50,223 nt of DNA from Candidatus Parcubacteria bacterium (lineage in GTDB: Bacteria; Patescibacteriota; Patescibacteriia; Patescibacteriales; BM507): assembly GCA_002869265.1 (NCBI GenBank), contig PKTH01000036.1, forward strand, positions 1-50,223, in the 5' to 3' direction. Under the pieces are notes generated by a model. That model made no database searches. It was given only the letters and a program-made list of their open reading frames with translations, and had not been told where the DNA came from. Below, piece after piece: positions 6,082 through 33,300 of this stretch. Position 1 is the stretch's first letter. Each line of letters opens with the position of its first letter. Made by a program: the position numbers and the translations under genes.

Positions 6082-6170
6082 TTCCACGAGCCCGTGCAAA
6101 ATAAAAAGTACCTATCTTTAGGTATTTTTTTGTACTAAAATTGAAGTAGGGTTCGTGGAAATCTAACTAA
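6082..6170. repeat. Repeat copy 2: inverted-repeat element TTCCACGAGCCC...GGGTTCGTGGAA enclosing an intrinsic terminator
   Basis: Arms 6082-6093 and 6149-6160 match 11/12; inner hairpin GTACCTA-tctt-TAGGTAT plus T-tract; near-identical to window positions 1-80. Confidence 0.9.
6102..6131 (+). terminator. Intrinsic terminator within repeat copy 2
   Basis: aaaaagtacctatctttaggtattttttt hairpin followed by T-run. Confidence 0.75.
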
Positions 6171-25273: not shown

Positions 25274-25337
25274 TTGACTTTTAGCATGTTTTATGCTAAT
25301 TTTAAAAAAAATCTGACAAGGAGGTCGGACTTTTTTT
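25274..25337 (+). promoter_or_regulatory. Promoter TTGACT-17-TAATTT plus immediate hairpin with AAGGAG loop upstream of the purN-like gene
   Basis: TTGACT 25274-25279, TAATTT 25297-25302; TCTGAC-aaggag-GTCGGA (25312-25329) + CTTTTTTT; inverted repeat TTAGCAT/ATGCTAA in spacer. Confidence 0.6.
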
Positions 25338-26208: not shown

Positions 26209-28167
26209 ATGTCAGGGAAAACAGCGTTTCAAAAGATTATTGATAGCCATTTGGTAGGAATTTTACCTGATGGAAGCATGCTTCTTAAGATCGACAAGCG
26301 TTTTTGTCATGAGATTACAACTCCAAATGCCATTATCGATGCTCAGAGTCGAGATGCTGACGTTGTGTATGATCCGCAAAATATAAAAGTAATGATTGAT
26401 CATGTGAGTCCAGCCAAGGATACTCAGTCTGCAATTCAGGCCAAGATTATTCGTGACTGGTCTCGTAAGCACGCTCTAGAGTTCTTGGAGATTGGCAACA
26501 ATGGTGTTTGTCATGCTATTATCCCTGAAAAGGGATGGATCCTTCCTGGTGAAACCGCGGTTATGGGTGATAGTCATACTTGCACCCATGGGGCTTTTTG
26601 CACATTCTCTGCTGGAGTGGGAACGACCGATTTACAAGTAGCTATTGCAACTGGTCTGTGGGTTTGCCCTCCTCAGAAAGTTATTCGAGTAAATTTCAAT
26701 GGTGTGCTCCCATACAATCTTTTTTCGAAAGACCTTGTTCTTGCCTGGATCGCTCAAGTGGGAGTTAATGGGGCTACAAACTGTGTTGTTGAATTTGGTG
26801 GTTCGGTTATTGACAATATGTCAATGGACGCTCGAATGACCATAACAAACATGGCAGTCGAGGCAGGAGCAACTTCAGGCATGATAAATGTCGACGATGT
26901 TACTCTTGAGTATCTGGATTATTGTATTTGGGATATTTTGGAAAGAGACTTGAAATCAGATACACAATCCATCAAAGAAGAGATGATGAGCTGGAATAGT
27001 GATCAGGATGCAAAGTACGACAAAGTGATTGATATCGATGTGAGCAATATGGAACCAATGATAACCTTTGGCACAAGTCCTGAAAATGTAAAAACAGTGA
27101 AAGAAATGGAAGGTGGCCATGTAGATCAGGTTTATATTGGCTCATGTACCAACGGCCGGATCGAAGATCTGCGTGTTGCAGCAATGATTCTCGGGAAAAA
27201 CAAAGTGGCCGAAGGAGTTCGTTGTATTATAAATCCAGCGACAACTGAAATATGGAAAATGGCCCTGGAAGAAGGTTTATTTAAAACCTTTTCTGAAGCC
27301 GGTTGTTCAATTACGAATCCCAGTTGTGGAGCTTGTCTTGGTATGTCATGCGGAGTTTTAGCTCCTGGTGAAACTTGTGTTTCTACGACAAACAGAAACT
27401 TCCCAGGACGCATGGGGAAAGATGGAACAGTCCACTTGGCATCTGCGGCGACAGCAGCTGAGACTGCAATCAGAGGAGTGATTTCAGTTCCTGAATCTGT
27501 AGAAGATTTCTCATATTGTTCTAAGCTTCCTGCGTTTGCTGAAAGGACAGCTTATGTGGGACCCGAATGGGATACACCAAACTTTGCTGAAATTGCTGCA
27601 AAGCAATCTGGAGAGGGAAGAGACTTTTCTGGAAAGGTGTTTATCCATCCAGATTCGAATGTTGATACAGATCAGATAATCCCGGCAAAATATTTAACAG
27701 AAACAAGTAAGTCCGTGATGGGGGAACATTGTTTGGAGGATGCTGACATTCCCGCAGATCTTAGAGAGAAGCTTTTGTCATCTCAGATTTTAATTGCTGG
27801 TGAGAACTTTGGTTGTGGTTCAAGTCGTGAACACGCACCATGGGCACTTGAAGCGGCTGGCATTTGTTGCGTTATTGCGCCAAGCTTTGCACGCATTTTC
27901 TATGAAAACATGTTTGCCAATGGCCTGCTTTGTATCGTCTTGCCGCAAGAGATGATTGATGAGATTGTTAAAGAACGAGCAACTACAATAAACATTGACT
28001 GGGAGGCAGGAAACTTATCTCATCACGTAAAATTGATTGGCAAAAAAGACCCAGCTGAATATGACTTTGAGTTATCAGAATTTCAGAAGGAAATGATCCG
28101 CAGTGGTGGCAAGGTTGCCTATATGTTTAGTCTGGCGGCCGAGCTAGTTGAAGAAGGTAAACTCTAA
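26209..28167 (+). CDS. Fused 3-isopropylmalate dehydratase large plus small subunit (LeuC-LeuD, aconitase family)
   Basis: '[22 protein letters not shown]', '[14 protein letters not shown]', '[13 protein letters not shown]' then LeuD-like '[15 protein letters not shown]', '[16 protein letters not shown]'. Confidence 0.88.
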
Positions 28168-30923: not shown

Positions 30924-30996
30924 TTGAAAAATTGCAGAGAGTGTGTTAGAGTAAACTCAAATTTGAAGCTAAACCAAGGAGAAGGTTTAGCTTTTT
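30924..30996 (+). promoter_or_regulatory. Promoter TTGAAA-17-TAGAGT plus 10-bp hairpin with AAGGAGAA loop upstream of PurC-PurE
   Basis: AAGCTAAACC (30966-30975) AAGGAGAA GGTTTAGCTT (30984-30993) TTT. Confidence 0.65.
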
Positions 30997-31092: not shown

Positions 31093-32493
31093 ATGCAAGT
31101 TGGAACGATCTTGCCAGACCATGGTTTTAAACGAGGGAAGAAGGTTGATGCCGGGAAAACGAAAACACTTTACAGAGTTAAAGGCCGACCAGATCTTTTG
31201 TGGGTCGAGAATAAAGACAAGATAACTGCTCATGATAAGAAGGAGTTTACCAAATCCTTTGACACAAAAGCGGGCTATGCCACTAATACGACTTGTCGTG
31301 TGTTTGAACTTCTCGAGGCAGCTGGAATCGAGACAGCTTACGTTTGTCAGGTTTCACCGACTGCATTTATTTGCAAAAGACTCGACATGATCAAGCTGGA
31401 AGTTGTTGCCCGCCGCTCAGCAGTCGGTAGTTTTACTGACCGCAATCCGCACCTGCAGAAAGAAAAGGGTGAAGAACCTCATCGTTTCCACAGTCTCGTC
31501 AGGGAGTTTTTCCTGAAAACGAGCAATGGAAATCTCAGTGTGAATGGTGAGCCTTTGGTGAAAAACCTTCGGGGCCTGGTCAAGGATCCTGACACCAAGA
31601 AATTCAAGATGGGAATAGTGGATGATCCTTTTATCCCTGATCCGTACAACGAACTTGGATGGGCTCTGGTTAATCCGAAGTTGCCTAAGTGGCACGAGAA
31701 GTATGATCTTGGTCAGAGCATTGATCCACGGTTTGTTCTTCGGAACCAAACTGCTGATCTTTTGAAGATTGATGAACTTCTTCGGAAGATTTTCTATGTT
31801 CTCGAAAAGGCCTGGGCTGTTCTCGAGATGCGCTTGATCGACTTTAAGCTAGAATTCGGCTACGACATGGCCGGCAATCTCGTGGTCGGCGATGTTATTG
31901 ACAATGATTCTTGGCGTATCCGGCTCTTTGATTGGACTGACTATTCTAAGCAGGCCTTCCGTGATGGTGAGAATCTGGATGAAGTCGAGAGAAAGTATGG
32001 CTATGTTTCACGATTGGCCAATCAGTTCCGCATCCCCAAGCAGGTCATTGTCTTTTGGCGGGGGTCAGACAAAGATGATTGCTTTGACAAGATTCGGCAA
32101 GAAATCGAAAGTCAGGCCAAAGGGACAATCGAAATTGTCGATATTGTCCTTTCCGGACATAAAAAAACCGACAAGTCTCTCAAGATGCTTAACAGTATTA
32201 TGAGTAAGTATCTGGGTGGTGGTTTTATTATTACCAATGTCGGTCGCTCAAATGGTCTAGGTCCGATAGTCTCGGCACATACCTCCTGGCCGGTTATGTC
32301 CATTGCAGCCACATTCGAGAGTGACCCCAATGACATTTTTAGCTCGATTAATATGCCTTCGGATACGCCCCACACGGCCACTCCTTATGGCAAGCTGGCT
32401 TTCTTGTCTGCTCTCAATCACTTGTCACTGAACAATCCAGTGGCCTACATGATGAGGCAAAATGTTATCGAAAGTCTCGATGACCAGTATTGA
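31093..32493 (+). CDS. Bifunctional SAICAR synthetase / AIR carboxylase (PurC-PurE fusion, PAICS-like)
   Basis: PurC: 'GKTKTLYRVKG', 'RRSAVGSFTDRNP', 'DFKLEFGYDMAGNLVVGDVIDNDSWR'; PurE-like: 'VVLSGHKK', 'NVGRSNGLGPIVSAHTSWPVMS', 'INMPSDTPHTATPYGKLAFLSALNHLSL'. Confidence 0.9.
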   Translation: MQVGTILPDHGFKRGKKVDAGKTKTLYRVKGRPDLLWVENKDKITAHDKKEFTKSFDTKAGYATNTTCRVFELLEAAGIETAYVCQVSPTAFICKRLDMIKLEVVARRSAVGSFTDRNPHLQKEKGEEPHRFHSLVREFFLKTSNGNLSVNGEPLVKNLRGLVKDPDTKKFKMGIVDDPFIPDPYNELGWALVNPKLPKWHEKYDLGQSIDPRFVLRNQTADLLKIDELLRKIFYVLEKAWAVLEMRLIDFKLEFGYDMAGNLVVGDVIDNDSWRIRLFDWTDYSKQAFRDGENLDEVERKYGYVSRLANQFRIPKQVIVFWRGSDKDDCFDKIRQEIESQAKGTIEIVDIVLSGHKKTDKSLKMLNSIMSKYLGGGFIITNVGRSNGLGPIVSAHTSWPVMSIAATFESDPNDIFSSINMPSDTPHTATPYGKLAFLSALNHLSLNNPVAYMMRQNVIESLDDQY

Positions 32494-32516
32494 TTAGTTG
32501 ACGCGTTTTTTTACTA

Positions 32517-32546
32517 GCGCCCACAAAATATGTGGGCGCTTTTTTA
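32517..32546 (+). terminator. Intrinsic terminator
   Basis: gcgcccacaaaatatgtgggcgctttttt. Confidence 0.92.
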
Positions 32547-32727
32547 TTGACTAAAACAGTATTTTTTGATATACAGTAAGTATATGAAAACAAATAACCT
32601 AAAATTAAATAATCTTCAATTGAGAAGAAGAGAAACACCTTGGTTTGGACTAGGTTATTTTTCGTGTGTTTCATAGTATAAAATAAAGCACACCAAGAGA
32701 GATGGCTCTAGTCGAGCCATTTTTTAT
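32547..32727 (+). promoter_or_regulatory. Promoter TTGACT-17-TATACA followed by structured leader ending in intrinsic terminator
   Basis: AAATAACCTA (32592-32601)/TAGGTTATTT (32651-32660); GAAACAC (32632-32638)/GTGTTTC (32666-32672); terminal ATGGCTCtagtcGAGCCATTTTTT. Confidence 0.5.
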
Positions 32728-32774
32728 TTTGGAAAATTGTTCATTTAAACACCAACAAAGAGAGGAGAAAGGAA

Positions 32775-33269
32775 ATGAAAGAAAAGCTAATTTTTGAAAA
32801 AAGTTCTTCAAAACATTTGCAGTTTGTTGAAGAGGTAAAAATCCTAATAGACAGGGAGGCCCGTAAGGACAATATGGTTTATCAAACAGAGGAAGCTCTA
32901 AGCGAACAAATAATGAATGAAGATGCAGTTTTAGTTTTTTCAGAGTCACGACTCGTCGGATACATCTGCCTTGAGTATTGGAAAAACTATATTGAGATTG
33001 GGGGCCTAGTTGTCGACCCCGAATATAGAGAAAGTGGTATTGGTTATCAGTTGACGGTTGAAGTTATCGAATTGGCTTTGTCAAAGAAATCTGACAAGGA
33101 GATAATTATTCTGGCCAATAGCGTTTCTTGTCTTATTCCCAAAAAAATTGGCTTCGTGGTTAAGGAAAAAAATTATTTTCATAGCGAGGTTTGGGAGTTA
33201 TGCGAAATGTGTGAAAGTAGACATAAATTTCCTGATTGTCGTTGTGTTGGTCTGGTTTATCCAGTGTAA
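32775..33269 (+). CDS. GNAT family N-acetyltransferase
   Basis: 'IEIGGLVVDPEYRESGIGYQLTVEVIELA'; SD gaggagaaagg. Confidence 0.85.
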   Translation: MKEKLIFEKSSSKHLQFVEEVKILIDREARKDNMVYQTEEALSEQIMNEDAVLVFSESRLVGYICLEYWKNYIEIGGLVVDPEYRESGIGYQLTVEVIELALSKKSDKEIIILANSVSCLIPKKIGFVVKEKNYFHSEVWELCEMCESRHKFPDCRCVGLVYPV

Positions 33270-33273
33270 AAAT

Positions 33274-33300
33274 AAGGAGAGATTTATTCTCTCCTTTTTA
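33274..33300 (+). terminator. Intrinsic terminator
   Basis: aaggagagatttattctctccttttt. Confidence 0.85.

Follow-up and report, generated by a model that had tools for sequence, protein, structure and literature searches.

A candidate arginine-responsive, ribosome-mediated attenuator upstream of an ArgA-like GNAT gene in a Parcubacterium

The 50,223-nucleotide stretch of Candidatus Parcubacteria DNA analyzed here (the window) carries, before a gene for a GNAT acetyltransferase, a leader that is in all likelihood an arginine-responsive, ribosome-mediated transcription attenuator. Judging from the placement of its codons and from related leaders, the sensed amino acid is very probably arginine rather than an aromatic residue. 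A run of three arginine codons in a short leader ORF lies immediately upstream of RNA that folds, depending in silico on ribosome position, into either an antiterminator or an intrinsic terminator, and short ORFs with arginine runs recur before GNAT homologues in other Patescibacteria.

Leader architecture and the putatively regulated gene

Direct reading of the sequence at 32547–32775 confirmed every promoter, ORF, and pairing coordinate proposed in a previous sequence-only reading, including the TTGACT-17-TATACA promoter, the 30-codon ORF, and the terminator before the GNAT gene. The elements of the locus, with their basis, are as follows.

32547–32575, + strand: sigma-70-type promoter TTGACT-17-TATACA (sequence; −35 box 32547–32552, 17-nt spacer, −10 box 32570–32575)
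32584–32676, + strand: leader ORF, 30 codons plus stop (TAG 32674–32676), product MKTNNLKLNNLQLRRRETPWFGLGYFSCVS (sequence; layout shared with 12 further leaders)
32592–32601, + strand: Region 1, AAATAACCTA, with partner 32651–32660 (lowest-energy folds of nascent transcripts ending at 32658–32700 and 32730)
32623–32631, + strand: putative control codons AGA AGA AGA (Arg14–16), the presumed sensor (recurrence, ribosome-position folding, control-ORF comparison)
32641–32671, + strand: antiterminator 5′ arm, coding for W F G L G Y F S C V (folding)
32688–32719, + strand: antiterminator 3′ arm, overlapping the terminator 5′ stem and loop, start approximate (folding)
32701–32730, + strand: intrinsic terminator, stem 32701–32708/32714–32721, U-run 32722–32730 (sequence, folding)
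32762–32767, + strand: Shine-Dalgarno sequence GAGGAG for the GNAT gene (sequence)
32775–33269, + strand: GNAT gene, 164 aa, NAGS/ArgA-like (NCBIfam)
33274–33296, + strand: terminator 3′ of the GNAT gene, giving a single-gene transcript (terminator search)

The leader ORF ATG at 32584 lies 8 nt past the −10 box, approximately at the predicted start site, and on the strength of this promoter spacing translation of the ORF is probably leaderless, as had been suggested. The leader fold was more stable than all 200 of 200 shuffled sequences (z = −3.73). No Rfam family reached its gathering threshold anywhere in the window, leaving the leader without a known Rfam cis-regulatory family, and no T-box (RF00230) match was found in the leader or elsewhere in the window. 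The best Rfam match to the leader, FopS (29.7 bits vs a gathering score of 56), was rejected as a resemblance to the terminator hairpin, and the remaining matches in an E-value search were weak and at chance level.

The GNAT gene forms a single-gene unit, flanked by the terminator of an upstream purC/purE fusion gene (32516–32540) and by its own. Its product matched PRK07757 best (56.8 of 154 bits), then rimI and the amino-acid N-acetyltransferase family PRK07922 (27.2 of 180 bits), all below the curated NCBIfam cutoffs; these are therefore nearest families only, and no curated cutoff was reached for identity as N-acetylglutamate synthase (ArgA). A C-terminal W-x2-C-x2-C-x8-C-x-C motif is present. 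Neither argG nor argB was detected in the window's genome (92.6% complete), and the GNAT thus does not fall within any complete known pathway for arginine in that genome; both were also undetected in most other genomes with Arg leaders. The gene belongs to a GNAT group that is found in the arg operons of some other Patescibacteria, and does not simply encode the opening step of a full acetyl pathway in its own genome.

Ribosome position and the predicted choice between antiterminator and terminator

The nascent transcript was folded stepwise, with ribosome-covered RNA masked codon by codon. A long antiterminator hairpin was found, with its 5′ arm at 32641–32671 and its 3′ arm extending to 32719, which uses up the 5′ stem and loop of the terminator. 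In silico, the probability of the terminator was 0.00 with the A site at Arg14–16 vs 0.97 with the ribosome at the stop codon, a contrast stable across assumed footprints of 9–17 nt. Masked folding gave the antiterminator with the A site at any codon up to and including 18 and the terminator from P19 onward; the Arg run (codons 14–16) lies toward the 3′ end of the permissive codons, and W20 to F26 fall within the terminating stretch. Of 300 sequences shuffled everywhere except in the terminator, 1 switched as well as the real leader. The ribosome-position-dependent folds support the proposal, already made from the sequence, that the leader is an amino-acid attenuator whose ORF takes part in the switching.

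In untranslated window RNA the two states have almost the same energy (−36.4 kcal/mol in transcripts that stop short of the U-run, −37.0 kcal/mol in those that end within it), and with the U-run omitted and no ribosome present the antiterminator is favored (terminator probability 0.01). A preference for the terminator with the ORF untranslated, balanced in the window (G000), is clear in leaders G687, G743, and G744b. The three rival pairings described earlier all exist at their coordinates, yet only AAATAACCTA/TAGGTTATTT is part of the lowest-energy fold of the untranslated transcript; GAAACAC/GTGTTTC and CTTGGT/ACCAAG lie outside the lowest-energy folds, and the antiterminator had gone unnamed.

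From these folds we infer the following sequence of events. Transcription would start at or next to the leader ORF ATG, with a ribosome trailing the polymerase. Given ample Arg-tRNA, the ribosome would reach the stop codon and cover the antiterminator 5′ arm, whereupon the terminator at 32701–32730 would form and transcription would stop short of the GNAT gene. Under a shortage of charged Arg-tRNA, the ribosome would stall on AGA-AGA-AGA, leaving the arm at 32641–32671 free to pair with 32688–32719; this pairing would destroy the terminator, and read-through would allow the GNAT to be made. Without translation of the ORF, pairing of Region 1 (32592–32601) with 32651–32660 could block the antiterminator.

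Arginine leaders and arginine T-boxes in other Patescibacteria

GNAT relatives were gathered by whole-genome search and a contig scan (named contig matches being Berkelbacteria), and their upstream regions were read without a prior filter for leaders. Together with a search for the antiterminator-arm motif, this reading yielded twelve more Arg leaders across nine other genomes. In eight other genomes, a short ORF that encodes an Arg run is followed by a terminator and then a GNAT homologue, with leader peptides including MTKANQNSRRHCHF... (G192), MNKQNNRQLNHRRRRSYQ... (G687), ...IRRRRNRLRRRCL (G116), ...SRRRQN... (G744), ...NRRRNS... (G009), ...NRRRST... (G032), and ...LRRRGI... (G697). The motif search, which used the antiterminator arm and not Arg codons, contributed three of the leaders, two in tandem in G743 and one in G744; six of its 11 matches (L078–L081, L084, and L086) did not show the leader layout and were set aside as chance matches. 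Two leader units also stand in tandem before the GNAT in G584, where one unit (G584a) contains no RR and has scattered Arg codons. The G584 peptide/terminator units occupy L029 1980–2260 on the minus strand, with one gene downstream; the G743 pair (L085, upstream of 1610) precedes the gene for a putatively controlled 181-aa protein that has no Pfam match.

The distance from stop codon to terminator is 19–30 nt in the 12 tabulated leaders and 48 nt in the first G743 unit. The Arg runs, usually RR to RRRR, are encoded as AGA AGA AGA; CGT CGT; CGA CGT CGC CGA; or CGC AGG AGA. The Arg codons are unrelated between loci, and it is therefore the amino acid that is conserved, not the DNA. RRR was present in 8 of the 12 tabulated leaders vs 0 of 30 control short ORFs, and 11 of these leaders vs 2 of the controls contained at least RR, counts that come from few loci and ignore relatedness. 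In most of the further leaders, the in silico terminator probability was 0.00–0.02 with the ribosome stalled at the Arg run vs 0.92–1.00 at the stop codon. The G192, G744, and G116 leaders switched partially or for some footprints only, and that of G697 only with footprints up to 13 nt. TTGACA with 16–17-nt spacing lies directly 5′ of the leader ORF in G687, G744, and G192. By eye, the helix is kept despite variation among the G009, G032, G743, and G744 leaders, with GAGG/CCTC becoming GGGA/TCCT in the second G744 leader.

Close orthologues of the window locus were found neither in 60 relatives nor in the genome contig collection; blastn with the leader against 111 genomes of the order returned, besides the leader itself, AT-rich chance matches only, and purC/purE synteny gave no matches in 11 genomes. 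Weaker GNAT matches (L032, L035, L059, L062, and L064–L067), with neither an Arg leader nor a recognized T-box upstream, probably represent other GNATs. A small ORF with TRR at 25286 of the window, 5′ of a formyltransferase gene, was rejected as it has no terminator downstream. At L088 (G744:C33, 1339–1500), the Arg leader that the motif search found in G744, MNKILINNRSMTQRRRPTV..., and its terminator have no codirectional gene nearby and a large ORF antisense.

A second, independent line pointing to arginine comes from T-box leaders, which precede GNATs of the same group twice in G032 (specifier CGC) and once in G066 (specifier CGA), both specifiers reading as Arg codons; by locus, L033 and L045 have CGC and L057 has CGA, each specifier having been read visually, following the GAA in the Rfam alignment. 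Truncated T-box matches at L060 and L063 have CGC in a shortened stem loop. The operon partners likewise involve arginine: G116 has the order Arg leader-GNAT-argG-argH, G066 has Arg T-box-GNAT-argH-argG-argS, and leader-GNAT-argE-like gene is the order in G192, G584, and G687. ArgE/DapE-type deacylases are GNAT partners in these three genomes and in G215. At L082 (G032), an Arg T-box (CGC) and its terminator are followed directly by an Arg leader ORF, MAKNQIYTIINRRRSTHTIFLRLFVSV, all before one GNAT. At L053 (4026–5019, minus strand; G009), a 149-aa ORF stands after an Arg-leader GNAT and is similar to the N-terminal portion of acetylglutamate kinase, with a weak argB match and no Pfam match.

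A broader proposal, plausible but tentative, is that ArgA-like GNATs in Patescibacteria make up an arginine regulon: before them, attenuators with leaderless Arg leader peptides and T-boxes specific for Arg would stand in for one another or act in series. The regulon would extend to genomes that lack the classical acetylated route to arginine; the GNAT there, in many cases accompanied by an ArgE-like deacylase, might act in an undescribed response to arginine scarcity.

Alternative explanations and relation to known systems

The leader ORF also encodes W20, F21, Y25, and F26, which had suggested an aromatic amino-acid attenuator with stalling at the W-F-Y-F codons on shortage of Trp, Phe, or Tyr. 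An A site anywhere from W20 to F26 covers the antiterminator arm and gives a terminator probability of about 0.9–1.0, the reverse of what control by aromatic shortage would require; stalling on aromatic codons would terminate because the antiterminator 5′ arm is the very RNA that codes for WFGLGYFSCV, and the aromatic codons can be accounted for as what that arm spells when translated. Since homologous loci, moreover, share Arg runs and not the aromatic cluster, aromatic sensing appears extremely improbable. A leader that senses a drug is also improbable, if somewhat less so. An antibiotic might arrest the ribosome at RRR and thereby induce a drug-detoxifying GNAT: the +X+ motif is known for macrolide ribosome arrest, the leader would work mechanically with any arrest at RRR, and drug acetyltransferases exist among GNATs, with the window's GNAT itself weakly matching an entry in the PDB, a putative streptothricin acetyltransferase (E 9.5e-5). 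Against this, NCBIfam places the GNAT closest to amino-acid acetyltransferases, and its homologues adjoin argG, argH, argS, and argE-like genes and stand under Arg T-boxes, which sense tRNA charging and not drugs.

Strong alternative folds would equally suit a ligand-binding riboswitch or a protein-bound leader in which the ORF is coincidental, and a 30-codon ORF is by itself not rare in AT-rich DNA. This explanation is very improbable given the Rfam results above and the 12 tabulated leaders, in which the Arg-run ORF and its spacing to the terminator recur and the RNA sequence mostly does not. That there is no regulation, with a short terminated transcript of its own here and the GNAT expressed from elsewhere, would fit the self-contained unit made by the upstream terminator (32516–32540) and the locus's own promoter; it is hardly credible beside a position-dependent antiterminator overlap so rarely matched by shuffles and found again in relatives.

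The preferred arginine attenuator shares with the trp, his, leu, thr, phe, and ilv attenuators a leader ORF at the 5′ end that contains consecutive control codons, competing antiterminator and terminator, an intrinsic terminator before the gene, and predicted read-through on a control-codon pause. It differs from them in its proposed arginine control, putatively leaderless ORF, and Patescibacteria host, and in having the antiterminator arm within the ORF itself, 3′ of the control codons. In Salmonella speF, which encodes ornithine decarboxylase, consecutive Arg codons 12–13 of the short upstream orf34 sense arginine, synonymous Arg codons are equally effective, and control runs through termination by Rho, decay by RNase G, and occlusion of a ribosome site (PMC6386406). 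Tandem Arg codons in a short leader ORF are thus common to both systems, whereas the window has an intrinsic terminator and an ArgA-like GNAT. The Arg-specifier T-boxes (RF00230) that other Patescibacteria have in front of GNATs of this group sense tRNA-Arg charging by binding uncharged tRNA directly, with no ORF needed, in contrast to the window leader. Exchange of T-box and leader peptide before the same gene has been described for hisS genes (PMC2965389). For Pseudomonas aeruginosa carAB, according to work cited in PMC4997734, a leader peptide likewise precedes an arginine/pyrimidine gene and attenuation was proposed, with the signal ascribed to pyrimidines. Neither an arginine leader-peptide attenuator with an intrinsic terminator, in Rfam or open papers, nor any leader-peptide switch in Patescibacteria, in open papers, was found.

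Gene regulation in Patescibacteria is little studied. The leader would name a signal, arginine, for a gene group annotated merely as acetyltransferase, flagging it as an arginine-scarcity gene even where genomes seem unable to make arginine; exchange of T-box and leader peptide, with tandem use before one gene, would offer a clean case for the study of sensor replacement.

Several other features of the window were observed. Two copies of an approximately 80-bp element with inverted ends (CCACGAGCCCGTGC ... TCGTGG) lie at 1–80 and about 6085–6170, each upstream of a gene and with an inner terminator-like hairpin. A fused LeuC-LeuD-type aconitase family protein of 652 aa is encoded at 26209–28167, and the fused PurC-PurE-type protein, of 466 aa, at 31093–32493. 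A second terminator-like hairpin at 30965–30994, approximately 98 nt 5′ of the purC-purE fusion gene, may be part of a further attenuator.
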